The translations under genes and the position numbers were made by a program. From NCBI GenBank assembly GCA_016209605.1, contig JACQVS010000110.1, forward strand, positions 1 through 64,000: a stretch of 64,000 nucleotides of DNA. The letters are read 5' to 3'. Source of the stretch: Planctomycetota bacterium. Its GTDB lineage: Bacteria; Planctomycetota; UBA8108; JACQVS01. Positions 6,446 to 11,194 of the stretch are shown one piece after another. Within the stretch, counting starts at the first letter, position 1. The number at the start of each line of letters is the position of its first letter. The notes under the pieces were generated by a model. That model had not been told where the DNA came from. It was given only the letters and a program-made list of their open reading frames with translations, and searched no databases.

Positions 6446-6501
6446 GGAATCCCGCTCCAGTTATTTATATATCTAGCCGATAACCGAACCGCCGGTTGAA
6501 T

Positions 6502-7959
6502 ATGAAAAATAAAACCACTGTTCTAGTCGTCGATGACCAGGAAATCGGGCGCCAGGCGCTGGAGGGGCTGCTTTTCCCCATGGGCTTCGAACTGGCCTTT
6601 GCTGAAAACGGGCCGCAGACTCTGGATAAAGCCAAGGAGCTGCATCCGGATCTTATTCTTCTCGACGTGATGATGCCGGGAATGAATGGGATCGAAGTGT
6701 GCCGGAAACTGCGCGCGGATCCACTCTCTGCCGATGTCCCCATTATCATGGTGACGGCTCTGGATGACCGCGATTCCCGCCTGCAGGCCATCGAAGCCGG
6801 GGCCGACGATTTCATCACCAAACCCTTCGATCGCACGGAGCTGCGGGCGCGGGTGCGGACCATCACCCGCCTCAACCGCTATCGCCGGCTGCTCCTGGAG
6901 CGGGTCAAATTCGAGTGGGCCGTGGAACGGTCTGGAGATGGCTACCTGGTGTTGAAGGATGACGGCAAAATACTCTATGCCAACATTCGAGCGCGTCTGT
7001 ACCTCGGCCTCCCCGAAAATAAAAAAGAGGACTTTTCGGAAACTTTTCTGGAGCTGGCCCGGAATCAGTATCATCTCGAGCCGCAGCAGGCGTGGGAAAG
7101 CTGGCCGAAGCAATCTCCCGCTCCCTTGCAGCCGCCGCGCTACCTGGTGCGGCCGGAATCTCCCTCCCGGAATGCGCTCTGGCTGCAGATCGAAATGCTC
7201 GATTTTTCCTCGGAGTTGAACGGGGAGTTCATCGTCCGCCTCCATGATGTCACCACCCAGATGGCCATGCATCGGGACATATGGAAATTTCACTCCATGA
7301 TTTCCCACAAGCTCCGCACGCCCTTGACGGCGATCATCGCGGGGCTGGAAATCCTGTCTCAGCAAGCGGAGAATTATCCCAGCGCCGAAATTGCCGAGTT
7401 TGCAGGAATCGCGCTCAAAAACGCGCAAGATCTGCAGGGAGAAATTGATCGGATCCTGCAATACCTGAACGCGCCCAAGCTCCCCGACCCCGGCGAGGGA
7501 CTCGATCTCGCCTTGCTTCCGAAGATCATCAACACCATGTGCGCCAGCCTGGATATCAAGCCGGCATCGATTTCCGGCTTGGAGGCCCTGGATGGGGCCC
7601 ATCTTTCTCTCTCCCGGGAAGCCGTCGAGTCGGCGCTCTGGGAGATCCTGGAGAATGCCAAGAAATTCCACCCCCGGCGTTCCCCTCAAGTGGAGATCTT
7701 CGCGGCGCGTCAAGACAAGGAACTGGCCATCGAAATCCTCGATGATGGAGTCACCGTACCTCCGGAGCAGCTGATGCTGGTCTGGGTGCCTTATTATCAA
7801 GGCGAGAAGCACCACAGCGGTTGCGTGGCGGGTATGGGACTGGGCCTTCCCTTTGTCGCGTCGTTGGTCTGGAGCAGGGGCGGGAGATGTCGCATTTACA
7901 ATCGGGATAAGGTCCCGGGGATCGGGGTAGAGCTTGTATTACCCCTGGCCGCCCGTTGA
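6502..7959 (+). CDS. Response regulator-histidine kinase (REC-PAS-HK)
   Basis: Cytoplasmic two-component protein with an N-terminal receiver. The acidic pair is at VVDDQ, phosphoacceptor D55 in LILLDVMMPG, and the conserved Thr and Lys in MVTALDD and FITKPF. A PAS-like region (about 135-250) is followed by a HisKA segment with H269 in SHKLRTPL (Lys where Glu is usual) and an ATPase domain with N-box ENAKKF and G-boxes ILDDG and GMGLGLPF. The receiver-first order suggests that phosphorylation from another kinase controls this kinase. I chose the ATG at 6502 over a TTG two codons upstream. No Shine-Dalgarno is obvious, and no cognate output regulator is adjacent. Confidence 0.88.
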   Translation: MKNKTTVLVVDDQEIGRQALEGLLFPMGFELAFAENGPQTLDKAKELHPDLILLDVMMPGMNGIEVCRKLRADPLSADVPIIMVTALDDRDSRLQAIEAGADDFITKPFDRTELRARVRTITRLNRYRRLLLERVKFEWAVERSGDGYLVLKDDGKILYANIRARLYLGLPENKKEDFSETFLELARNQYHLEPQQAWESWPKQSPAPLQPPRYLVRPESPSRNALWLQIEMLDFSSELNGEFIVRLHDVTTQMAMHRDIWKFHSMISHKLRTPLTAIIAGLEILSQQAENYPSAEIAEFAGIALKNAQDLQGEIDRILQYLNAPKLPDPGEGLDLALLPKIINTMCASLDIKPASISGLEALDGAHLSLSREAVESALWEILENAKKFHPRRSPQVEIFAARQDKELAIEILDDGVTVPPEQLMLVWVPYYQGEKHHSGCVAGMGLGLPFVASLVWSRGGRCRIYNRDKVPGIGVELVLPLAAR

Positions 7960-8106
7960 AAAAAAGGCGTGAGAGGGTCCTTCCACGGCGCCGGCGCGAT
8001 GCCATCCAACCCTGGCCGGCTTTACTTTTAGTCGGCGATGTTATATATTTCCTGAAATTTCATAGCCGCAGTAGCGCTTGAAAAATTTCTGTCTTGGAGG
8101 TGCCCC

Positions 8107-9195
8107 TTGAATCGCGGCCGCCGAATATCCAGGCCTATATACAGACATATTTTGAGGATTTCAAAGCTGCTTTTCATCCTCCTTCCCCTCGGAATGATGC
8201 CGCCGGCGGCCGCCCAGCCAGCGCCGAAAGAAGGGGAATGCCCCGCCGACCATCTTCCCCCGCACCTCAAGAGATTGACGTGGTTCGGCGAGCGGCCCGA
8301 CTGGTCGCAGGATGGCCGGAGGATCCTGTTCGTCGAAAAGACCTTCGGCGATGTCTACGAAGTGGAGCTCGGCACCGGCATCATCCGCCCGATGACCCAC
8401 CACTACCAGCATCAGGGCTACACCCGGGCGCTTTATCTTCCAAACGGCGACCTCCTCCTCTCCGGCCCGGAGGCGTTCGACCCCAAGGACATCCACAAAA
8501 GCCGCGTCCAGTGCTGGCTCTCCGTTCTCGACCAGAGCCTCGCCCGGCCGCCGGTCCCCCTCGGGACCAAGTGCAGCGAAGGTCCGGCGATATCGCGCCG
8601 GCGCATGCACATCGCCTGGACGCACGTGAGCGAGCAGTATCCGGACGAGCTGCCCCGGGGAAGCTCCCGCATGTACGAGGCCGACTTCGTTTACGAGAAC
8701 GGCGCGCCCAAGCTGGCCAATCAAAAGCTCATCATCGACAGCCGCGACCTGCCCTTCAAGTGCACCCTGGAGACGCAGAATTTCCGCCCGCCGGAGGAGC
8801 GGGAGCTGATTTTCAGCGCCTACGGCCATCAAGGAACCGAGGTCTGCGGCATCGATCTGAGCACCAGGAAGGTCGCGAACTACTCCAACTCTCCCGGCCA
8901 GTACGATGAGCCCGAAGGCGTCTTTCCCGACGGGAAATACACGCTGGTGGAGTGCGACAAGCAGAACCTGAAGGGCGCGGGCCACATTGACATCTGGAAG
9001 CTGGCCCTGGACGGCACCGGCGCCTGCGAGCGCCTGACCTTCTTCAGCGATTTTCCCGGCTACAAGTCGTCGAATCCGGTGGTCAGCGATGATGGACTCT
9101 TCATGGCCTTCCAGATGGCCAGGTCCAGAGATCCGGCCGGCGTCGGCTACGGAATCTTCGTTTACAAATTCGCGAAAACGGGAAAAGGCAATTGA
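8107..9195 (+). CDS. Secreted TolB/PD40-type beta-propeller protein
   Basis: A 362-residue protein with an N-terminal export signal (LLFILLPLGMMPPAAAQ). Repeated blades of the WSQDGRRILFVE, YLPNGDLLLSG, VFPDGKYTLVE and VSDDGLFMAF type are characteristic of PD40/TolB-like propellers. A TTG start is chosen because a good GGAGG lies just upstream (8096-8100). The next Met is inside the predicted signal segment. Its TGA stop overlaps the reverse-transcriptase ATG by one base (TGATG), so the two are translationally coupled, an unexpected pairing of an exported propeller with an RT. Role unknown. Confidence 0.75.
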   Translation: MNRGRRISRPIYRHILRISKLLFILLPLGMMPPAAAQPAPKEGECPADHLPPHLKRLTWFGERPDWSQDGRRILFVEKTFGDVYEVELGTGIIRPMTHHYQHQGYTRALYLPNGDLLLSGPEAFDPKDIHKSRVQCWLSVLDQSLARPPVPLGTKCSEGPAISRRRMHIAWTHVSEQYPDELPRGSSRMYEADFVYENGAPKLANQKLIIDSRDLPFKCTLETQNFRPPEERELIFSAYGHQGTEVCGIDLSTRKVANYSNSPGQYDEPEGVFPDGKYTLVECDKQNLKGAGHIDIWKLALDGTGACERLTFFSDFPGYKSSNPVVSDDGLFMAFQMARSRDPAGVGYGIFVYKFAKTGKGN

Positions 9196-10655
9196 TGGCG
9201 CGGTTGTTGGCAACGGATTTTTCCCTCCCGCCTCGTGCGAAAAAGGTCACCTTCCGGGCGCTTTACCGCGAGCTGGACCTCGAGCGGGCGGTCCTCAGGA
9301 CCTACACCAAGTCGCTCTTCTTCCCCCGCAAGTCGCTTTCGGCCTCCCTCGACCGCCGCACCCTTTACGACTTCGCGCGGCGGACCCCCCAGAACGTCGA
9401 GCGGATCCATCAGGCGCTGGTGAAGCGCGCCTTCCACTTTCGCGAGGGCCTGGAGCTGCACTACAACTTCAACGGCAAGCAGCGCAAGGTTTACCTCTTT
9501 CCGTGGGAGGAGCGCATCGTCGATCTCCTTCTCTACCGCCTTCTGAACGCCCACTTTCACGGCGCCTTCTCGAGCTCGAGCTACGCCTACCGCCACCGCG
9601 GCCGCGGCGTCGATCTCTGCCAGCGCCGCATTGCCCGGAAGCTTCAGGAGCTGCCCCGGCCGCTTTACTTCCTCAAGCGCGACATCGCCGACTGCTTTCT
9701 GTCGATCGACCATGCGATCCTGCTCGAGCTGCTGGCCGAGTGGGTCGAGCCGGAAGATTACCTCTTCGACCTGCTCCGGGAGCGGGTCGAGTTTCGCTTC
9801 AAAAGCGAAGGGGAGGAAGCCATCAAGACGGCGTCGCGAGGCGTGCCTTTCGGCGCGGCCATCGCGTGCTTCTTCGCCAACCTCTACTTGACGCCCCTCG
9901 ATCGGGAGCTGGCCTCGATTCCCGGATTCCATTTTTTCCGCTACGCCGATGACATGCTGGGATTCTCCACAAGCCGGGAGTCCGCCCTGGAAGGCAGCCG
10001 GCGGCTCGAGGAAGCCATGAAGGCCTTGAAGCTGCTCAGCAAACCGAGCCACCACCGGGACTTCGCCTTCTCCGGGGGGGATGAGGCCGACGAGGTCTTT
10101 CAAAAAATCGCCAGGTTCCGCCATCTCGGGCTCGAGTTCCGCGCCGCGGGCGGCATCGGCCTGTCGCGCGACAAGGTCCGCAAGGTCTGCAACCAGTTCC
10201 GCTACGCCTTCCGGAGGGGGCGGCGGAAGCTCGAGGCCCTGGCCGATCCCGAAGACCGCGCCCGGCTCGCGGTCGACCTTGCGAGAGGCGTGCTTGAAAA
10301 AAGGTTCCGGCCAGTGGCCATCATCGATTACTATCTGAAGCACGTCGACGATGAAGAGCAGCTCCGTTGGATCGATCGCTGGCTGGCGGAGGAGGTCCTG
10401 GCGGTGGCTTTTCGAAACGGCCACAAGAAGGGGAACTTCCGGAGGATGTCCTTCGAGAAGCTCCGGGCCATGGGCTTGCCGTCGCTCCGCCATCGGCGCC
10501 GGCTGCTCCACCATGGCCATCTGGAATCGTCCTTTTTCGTTTTTCGGACCCGATGGCTGGTTGAAAAAAAGAGGAGGCGGCTGCCAGGCCGGAGAGGCGG
10601 GGAGAACCCCTCTTCTCAGGCCTTTTCTCCAGGTCTAGAAGCAGCGGCTGAATAA
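9195..10655 (+). CDS. Stand-alone reverse transcriptase, unclassified clade
   Basis: RNA-directed DNA polymerase of 486 residues. Visible RT motifs are LKRDIADCFLSIDH (motif A, first catalytic Asp), RGVPFGAAIACFFANLYL (the region equivalent to the group II PQG or DGR PIG motif) and FFRYADDMLGF (YADD, catalytic Asp pair). All three acidic residues are present, so it should be active. There is no maturase X, HNH or Cas1 domain. Motif B reads VPFGAAIA rather than the TPQGG of group II introns or the PIGNLTSQ of diversity-generating retroelements. The C-terminal ~40 residues are Arg/Lys-rich. It is coupled to the upstream propeller gene by TGATG and followed by a hairpin and a zinc-ribbon gene. 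Confidence 0.88.
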   Translation: MARLLATDFSLPPRAKKVTFRALYRELDLERAVLRTYTKSLFFPRKSLSASLDRRTLYDFARRTPQNVERIHQALVKRAFHFREGLELHYNFNGKQRKVYLFPWEERIVDLLLYRLLNAHFHGAFSSSSYAYRHRGRGVDLCQRRIARKLQELPRPLYFLKRDIADCFLSIDHAILLELLAEWVEPEDYLFDLLRERVEFRFKSEGEEAIKTASRGVPFGAAIACFFANLYLTPLDRELASIPGFHFFRYADDMLGFSTSRESALEGSRRLEEAMKALKLLSKPSHHRDFAFSGGDEADEVFQKIARFRHLGLEFRAAGGIGLSRDKVRKVCNQFRYAFRRGRRKLEALADPEDRARLAVDLARGVLEKRFRPVAIIDYYLKHVDDEEQLRWIDRWLAEEVLAVAFRNGHKKGNFRRMSFEKLRAMGLPSLRHRRRLLHHGHLESSFFVFRTRWLVEKKRRRLPGRRGGENPSSQAFSPGLEAAAE

Positions 10656-10698
10656 AACTCGTGAGAAAGAGGGCCGCCTGTCGATAGATGTCATTGAA

Positions 10699-10724
10699 GA
10701 CCTTTCCACCACGGTGTAAAGGTC
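10699..10724 (+). other. 26-nt near-perfect stem-loop between RT and zinc-ribbon genes
   Basis: Arms GACCTTT (10699-10705) and AAAGGTC (10718-10724) enclose a second stem, CACC/GGTG, with one mismatch and a two-base centre. No T-run follows, so it is not a simple terminator. It could be an operator, an RNA processing site or a structured RNA connected with the RT. Confidence 0.5.
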
Positions 10725-10771
10725 GTTGTTCAAGCCGCCTCCTCGATTTATTTCAAGAAGGAACTGAAGCC

Positions 10772-11194
10772 ATGGGACTTTTCGCCAAACTTTTCGGTTT
10801 CAAGGTCCCGTGCCCCTGGTGCGGCGCTCCCGGGGCGAGGGAGACTTTCATCGGCGTTTACTGCGTCAATCCCCGCTGCTCGTGCTTCGATGAGGACTAC
10901 GCCAGGCGGTCTGCCGGGGAGATGCCCTTTTCGCGGGAATCCCGAGCGCGGCCCGGCGGCGTGCTGTTTCCAGCCGCGCCGGAGCCCTCCGCTCCCCCCG
11001 CCAGCCCCATCGAGATCCAGTACGTCAACTTCCGGGGCGAGCACAAAACTTTTGTCGGCGACAAATCGTCAGCGCGGAAAAAAGGGGCGCACCTGAGCAT
11101 CGAGGTGGCGCCGAAGTACAAGCGCATCGCCCTCAAGCTCGAGAAGATCGCCAACCGGGACCAGGTGCTGCGGCAGATTGGCTCGGGAAGGTAA
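10772..11194 (+). CDS. Small zinc-ribbon protein, hypothetical
   Basis: A 140-residue protein starting MGLFAKLFGFK, with an AAGGA-type ribosome site upstream. A four-cysteine zinc ribbon is visible near the start (CPWC, then CVNPRC, plus a further Cys in CSCFD). A proline-rich linker follows, then a C-terminal basic/beta segment (EIQYVNFRGEHKTF, SIEVAPKYKRIALKLEKI). The longer in-frame start at 10688 would run through the upstream hairpin and is not favoured. It lies downstream of the RT gene in the same direction. No known family recognised. Confidence 0.6.
   Translation: MGLFAKLFGFKVPCPWCGAPGARETFIGVYCVNPRCSCFDEDYARRSAGEMPFSRESRARPGGVLFPAAPEPSAPPASPIEIQYVNFRGEHKTFVGDKSSARKKGAHLSIEVAPKYKRIALKLEKIANRDQVLRQIGSGR

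Follow-up and report, generated by a model that had tools for sequence, protein, structure and literature searches.

A reverse transcriptase outside the known classes tested and the structured RNA overlapping its gene: a probable RT-ncRNA system

In a contig of a Planctomycetota bacterium, a gene for a reverse transcriptase (RT) is found between genes for a propeller protein and a zinc-ribbon protein. To which class does this RT belong, and which of the elements around it belong with it? We analysed the window, the whole stretch of 64,000 nucleotides (contig JACQVS010000110.1, positions 1 to 64,000), together with related loci in other genomes. A preliminary description had read the three genes as one operon, and all three open reading frames were recovered where it had placed them, the RT with two possible starts (9192/9195). 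The genes and their parts are as follows.

Positions 8021 to 8049, forward strand: sigma-70-like promoter match ahead of the run of genes; single and weak, with 0.3 expected by chance.
Positions 8107 to 9195, forward strand: propeller gene, weakly PD40/TolB-like, with a TGATG overlap at the start of the RT; a local neighbour only.
Positions 9195 to 10655, forward strand: RT gene, with ATG at 9195, an alternative TTG start at 9192, and a match to RVT_1.
Positions 9681 to 9683, forward strand: Asp164 of RT motif A.
Positions ~9840 to 9890, forward strand: RT motif B.
Positions 9942 to 9953, forward strand: YADD of the RT.
Positions 10317 to 10511, forward strand: strongly conserved region C-terminal to the RT core, in the alignments AIIDYYLKHVDDEEQL...NGHKKGNF...LRAMGLPSLxHRRRL.
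Positions 10772 to 11194, forward strand: zinc-ribbon gene, 140 aa, with an N-terminal CPxC...C...C ribbon.
Positions 11009 to 11167, forward strand: domain X, an SH3/WYL-like barrel of ~53 aa, which recurs in genes downstream of the RT in relatives.

The proposed TGATG coupling of the RT to the propeller gene was located at 9193-9197. The zinc-ribbon gene was present too, but it starts at the ATG at 10772 and not at 10688, as judged from its orthologue in a Planctomycetaceae bin (L015), which begins MGWFDFIF and has the start MGxF and four cysteines in common with it. Upstream of the propeller gene, at 6496-7959, we observed a response regulator-PAS-histidine kinase fusion.

The RT matched Pfam RVT_1 with 71 bits. 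The claimed catalytic residues (Asp164 of motif A and YADD at residues 251-254) and motif B, GVPFGAAIACFFANLYL, were all present and are conserved in the relatives; every relative spanning the catalytic motifs keeps them, with a YSDD variant once (L010). Pfam found no extra domain in the protein, including no maturase or HNH match, as had been proposed. Values of dN/dS between close RT relatives were 0.06-0.11, which indicates that the protein is kept functional. Judged from its sequence, the RT is thus catalytically intact, and it is under purifying selection in its relatives. An AlphaFold2 model of the RT (pLDDT 81) was most similar among solved structures to DRT9, over its whole length (E 7e-18), followed by the GsI-IIC and G2L4 RTs, and DRT9 was also the best PDB profile match. 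In L016 the RT is split by a frameshift at ~8620-8700, with two overlapping matches in different frames in an otherwise complete locus; this may be real or a sequencing error. The window's own genome contains a second, partial RVT_1 match in a short partial frame (L002, G000 contig C46, 39196-39474), and RT-PrimPol fusion proteins were seen in the window's phylum (L023, L024).

None of the known RT classes that we tested claims this RT, so the earlier designation as unclassified stands, as judged from profiles and a tree lacking retrons and most DRTs. In this maximum-likelihood tree of 43 RTs, the family formed a clade with 100/100 support on a long stem and had no supported sister. Since the reference set lacked retrons and most DRTs, the tree indicates separateness and not position. 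The retron profile retron_St85 of NCBIfam gave 33 bits against a cut-off of 235; of the retron signatures, VTG occurred in none of 14 rows, and NAxxH was found in the window copy only and is not conserved. The group II intron score was 92 bits against a cut-off of 300, Rfam gave no group II intron match, and the overlap with the propeller gene and the close divergent genes upstream leave no room for intron domains upstream of the RT. The tree set the RT apart from DGR-like RTs, and the RNA element described below is single-copy in its own genome. No cas genes were found among the RT neighbours scanned and no Cas domain is fused to the RT, which separates it from CRISPR RTs. For the named DRTs, the Drt9 profile gave 61-90 bits, compared with 632 bits for a true DRT9, and the Drt2 and Drt3a scores were under the NCBIfam cut-offs.

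The nearest named group is UG26. Its PADLOC profile was the best of the named-group profiles in all five family members scanned (112-124 bits), and in four of these the alignment reached the C-terminal region, as would be expected if the RT were a member of UG26, or of another named defence-RT group, with an RNA specific to its lineage. However, a true UG26 sequence found in this work scored 327 bits in our calibration, about three times as much, and unrelated RTs reached up to 113 bits on the same profile. The generic RT profile gave 100-113 bits in the same five members and in the window RT slightly exceeded the UG26 score. The tree showed no supported union with UG26, and the UG26 loci L018 and L019 have no comparable downstream element. 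We therefore regard this explanation as improbable, the least likely of those weighed here.

Scanning one genome per GTDB species, we identified 14 loci of the RT family, with 42-58% identity, in Verrucomicrobiota, Lentisphaerota, Planctomycetota and Acidobacteriota. By profile search the family is rare. The class of L003 yielded it in 5 of 384 genomes, that of L012 in 5 of 198, and the phylum of L014 in 1 of 342. Of 148 genomes from the phylum of the window itself, the window's genome alone had it. In the Verrucomicrobiota family of L010, 13 of 20 genomes had the RT, with one copy each, whole or in fragments. The Verrucomicrobiota locus is chromosomal and lies among housekeeping genes, with nadA on one side and aquaporin, glycerol kinase and peroxiredoxin on the other; it is single-copy, syntenic and vertically kept. 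No member of the family was found in phage, plasmid or viral-contig sets, in which the best matches had 25-32% identity over part of the protein, and a PADLOC search of the RT neighbours gave only weak or ankyrin-type matches. This context favours a function that is inherited stably over a transient defence island, though immunity is still compatible with it.

Which of the neighbours, then, go with the RT? The operon reading was borne out in part by the gene-neighbourhood check: the RT and the C-terminal domain of the zinc-ribbon partner are conserved as neighbours, but the propeller is not. The exported propeller had been taken as a partner of the RT; it is missing beside every other RT relative, and a 63%-identical orthologue in a genome of the same order (G005) has neither an RT nor a zinc-ribbon gene nearby. 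Its identification as a PD40 propeller was likewise weakened to a sub-threshold similarity, with 15.4 bits for Pfam PD40 against a cut-off of 20.9, and its TolB-propeller score was far under the NCBIfam cut-off. The propeller is a local neighbour without a conserved link to the RT and lies outside the conserved unit. An abhydrolase is found near the RT in both the window and Verrucomicrobiota, but the two are only 23% alike and of a common kind, so it was not taken as linked.

The zinc-ribbon partner fared differently, in that its C-terminal domain proved to be a conserved RT neighbour. Domain X comprises the C-terminal 53 residues of this protein. Genes with domain X, often as repeats, lie directly behind the RT and the RNA in Verrucomicrobiota and Planctomycetota, where the domain is often fused to transmembrane-like segments, zinc ribbons, domains like the C-terminal domain of ribosomal L7/L12, or ankyrin repeats. 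Such genes occur in most lineages, and the zinc-ribbon gene is the simplest of them. At five loci (L003, L004, L005, L010 and L016), tandem paralogous genes behind the RT combine L7/L12 C-terminal-like domains with zinc ribbons, transmembrane-like segments, domain X and ankyrin repeats. Among the 20 genomes of the L010 family, RT and domain X occurred together in ten, the RT alone in three, domain X alone in one and neither in six; in the three RT-only genomes the RT matches were fragmentary or at contig ends. The predicted fold of domain X is a small SH3-like barrel, nearest to Tudor domains and the WYL protein BrxR with E-values that are not significant, and its sequence had no match in the PDB. 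Domain X was not found at the Lentisphaeria loci examined, which makes RT plus RNA the minimal unit.

The hairpin reported after the RT gene is real, and it belongs to an RNA supported by covariation; it is, however, merely part of a ~184-nt element that starts within the RT gene. The parts of this element in the window are given below.

Positions 10566 to 10749, forward strand: whole structured RNA, ~184 nt, inferred from folding and inverted repeats; it starts within the RT coding region and has the same layout in relatives.
Positions 10566 to 10582, forward strand: 5' arm of the closing stem (a1-like), in the 3' coding end of the RT; pairs with 10733-10749, 88% over 17 nt.
Positions 10587 to 10622, forward strand: 5' hairpin, variable in sequence among relatives.
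Positions 10621 to 10701, forward strand: RNA core (covariance model R1, 85 bits), including the RT stop codon at 10653-10655.
Positions 10624 to 10629, forward strand: 5' strand of the pseudoknot, TTTCTC, which covaries with 10663-10668; compensatory change in 4 of 6 pairs.
Positions 10633 to 10637, forward strand: 5' strand of helix P2, which pairs with 10685-10689; compensatory change in all 5 pairs, over 20 distinct sequences.
Positions 10641 to 10681, forward strand: helix P1, in which 10641-10647 and on pairs with 10673-10681, with P0 as its cap (10658-10660 with 10669-10671).
Positions 10663 to 10668, forward strand: 3' strand of the pseudoknot, GAGAAA, in the conserved GTGAGAAA loop.
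Positions 10699 to 10724, forward strand: 3' variable hairpin, short here and ~18-23 bp in Verrucomicrobiota.
Positions 10733 to 10749, forward strand: 3' arm of the closing stem (a2-like).

By folding, the 5' arm of the closing stem lies within the RT gene and is followed by the 5' hairpin and the core; then come one or two 3' hairpins and, last, the 3' arm of the stem. Equivalents of the closing stem, 12-28 nt long, were found in L015, L003, L004, L010 and L013. The variable hairpin of the window copy has 7+3 bp. The arms of the 3' hairpins are themselves partly self-complementary in L003 (9540-9587), L004 (5286-5338) and L010 (9244-9288), so that a single long hairpin and two short ones could be alternative states of the RNA.

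The alignment showed a block of DNA behind the RT that is conserved in all relatives while the protein ends there in varying frames and lengths. Because the RT stop codon falls at varying points within the core across lineages, this conservation is that of an RNA and not of a protein. We proposed a pseudoknot between TYYCTC and a GTRAGRRA loop and then counted pairs. The first count, over 13 distinct sequences, gave compensatory changes in 12 of 22 core pairs; the second, over 21 copies (20 distinct sequences), gave 16 of 22, the pseudoknot included. Pairing held in 91% of cells, compared with 40-54% in controls with partners slid by 1-3 columns, and there were 64 compensatory cells compared with 21 in shuffles. 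The nested part of the model guided the second alignment, which is therefore biased towards it; the pseudoknot, though absent from the model, was paired in 96% of cells. Between the hairpins of L003 and L007, five of six changed pairs were compensated, pairing being kept as the sequence changes.

A covariance model built from 14 copies found the core in two Lentisphaeria loci outside the model (L065 and L066), 240-250 nt behind the RT. The same model gave no match at any of the loci of other RT types scanned, and among 146 genomes of the window's own phylum, under strict filters, the window was the sole match. A second 37-nt match to the element in its own genome (C140) lies within a Lon-like coding gene and was rejected as chance. 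Rfam contains no family related to this RNA. Since the next gene is on the opposite strand in Lentisphaeria, the RNA is associated with the RT and does not serve as leader to the gene downstream. A further RNA-like element of ~210-240 nt, with a 23-32-nt closing stem and perfect hairpins, was observed in Lentisphaeria directly behind the RT and before the conserved core (L012 4860-5095; L013 7571-7799; L066 1337-1547).

The conserved unit thus comprises the RT, a structured RNA that overlaps the RT stop codon and extends to the next gene, and also, in most lineages, domain-X genes downstream. The overlap with the stop codon, and the position in the window between two co-directional genes, would also fit an RNA that serves as a regulatory element of the RT message, in autoregulation or processing, and not as a template. 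Standalone copies of the RNA away from the RT, and the further closed element between RT and core in Lentisphaeria, argue against this, as do the long variable hairpins, which are unusual in simple regulators. We consider a purely regulatory RNA unlikely, although it comes first among the alternatives.

The standalone copies were found in one Verrucomicrobiota family, at L091 (G149), L092 (G1082), L093 (G1079) and L090 (G151), and they retain the full architecture including the closing stem. Genome G149 has an RT-linked copy besides L091; hairpin 2 of the two is identical over ~57 nt, and the remainder is ~70% alike. In L090 (1-3250), when compared with L091 and L004 of G149, a 5' flank like that of L091 is joined to the 3' flank of the RT locus with its domain-X genes; either recombination between copies of the RNA or a chimera of the assembly at common hairpins may explain this junction. 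The differing sites of the copies suggest dispersal, for which retrotransposition would be a putative means. A bacterial retroelement of the LINE/SINE type could account for full copies at several distinct sites within one family (L090 with the caveat above) and for the identical hairpin: the RT would recognise its own message by the structured 3' end and, by way of cDNA, spread the RNA both in cis and in trans, and the standalone copies would be its non-autonomous offspring. Against this, at most two copies were found per genome, with one in the window's genome; the RT has no endonuclease domain, and its locus is single-copy and syntenic. A search for the empty site of a standalone copy in 1.47 of the 2.9 Mb of G150 did not find the flank. 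Such a retroelement is therefore doubtful and ranks second to the regulatory reading. A related and still less probable idea is that structured RNA genes are reverse-transcribed and dispersed, or else homogenised, in trans by one chromosomal RT, hairpins passing between the copies; this would be a LINE/SINE-like pair in a prokaryote or a family of RNA genes that edits itself.

We favour, with a probability of roughly 0.58, a new RT-ncRNA system: a ribonucleoprotein that makes RNA-templated cDNA in the manner of retrons or class 2 DRTs, while being a member of neither as tested. The earlier suggestion of an undescribed RT system is supported by the unclaimed RT class, the conserved domain-X neighbour and the covariation-supported RNA. 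An RT with an adjacent structured RNA and a small partner protein, together with the DRT9-like fold, makes RNA-templated cDNA synthesis the most likely activity. In such a system the RT would bind the pseudoknotted core as its cognate RNA and copy a part next to it, for which the variable 3' hairpin located between the core and the a2 strand is the likeliest candidate. The product would be a cDNA like msDNA or those of DRTs, single-stranded or hairpin, and the domain-X protein may sense or carry it, or act as the output. Cell defence or stress signalling would be the most likely role, which is the weaker half of the claim; a defence role is not supported by the context, given the housekeeping neighbours, vertical inheritance and absence from phage, plasmid and viral sets.

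The literature search returned no paper describing a system of this kind from Verrucomicrobiota, or one with a pseudoknotted RNA downstream; prior mention is possible in a UG/Abi survey (10.1093/nar/gkac467) and an RNA-motif paper (10.1093/nar/gkx699). The RT family comes mostly from phyla with few RT studies. It contributes a lineage of RTs that lies outside those named groups that were tested, an RNA with a fold not in Rfam that overlaps the 3' end of the RT gene, copies of this RNA at sites away from the RT, and a small partner domain that is new. RT-ncRNA pairs have repeatedly given unexpected mechanisms, such as msDNA, rolling-circle gene synthesis, and homopolymer and telomere-like repeat synthesis. 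The present system is compact (RT ~1.5 kb, RNA ~0.2-0.35 kb) and so directly testable in a laboratory strain.

Compared with known systems, the RT resembles group II intron and G2L4 RTs in overall fold and in an N-terminal extension before the RT core, but has no maturase or HNH match. UG26 RTs are nearest by profile among the named groups, yet no comparable RNA was seen at the UG26 loci L018 and L019. R2/LINE-type retroelements, which are eukaryotic, are alike in that the RT message carries a structured RNA at its 3' end and that RT-less copies exist, but here there is no endonuclease and the RT locus is single-copy. Retrons are similar in the long terminal inverted pairing around hairpins, the variable hairpin before the 3' arm, and the adjoining RT and accessory gene; they differ in that the RNA here is downstream of the RT and has a different fold with a core pseudoknot, and the RT is not retron-like by profile. 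Class 2 DRTs (DRT2, DRT9 and DRT10/UG17) likewise pair an RT with a dedicated structured ncRNA, as indicated here by covariation and co-occurrence, and include the closest solved fold, DRT9. DRT10 also encodes a partner protein, upstream of whose gene its ncRNA lies (PMC12632851), and the ncRNAs of DRT2 and DRT9 are upstream of the RT (PMC12489045). In the present family, by contrast, the ncRNA is downstream and overlaps the RT gene, the context is chromosomal and housekeeping, and standalone RNA copies occur.
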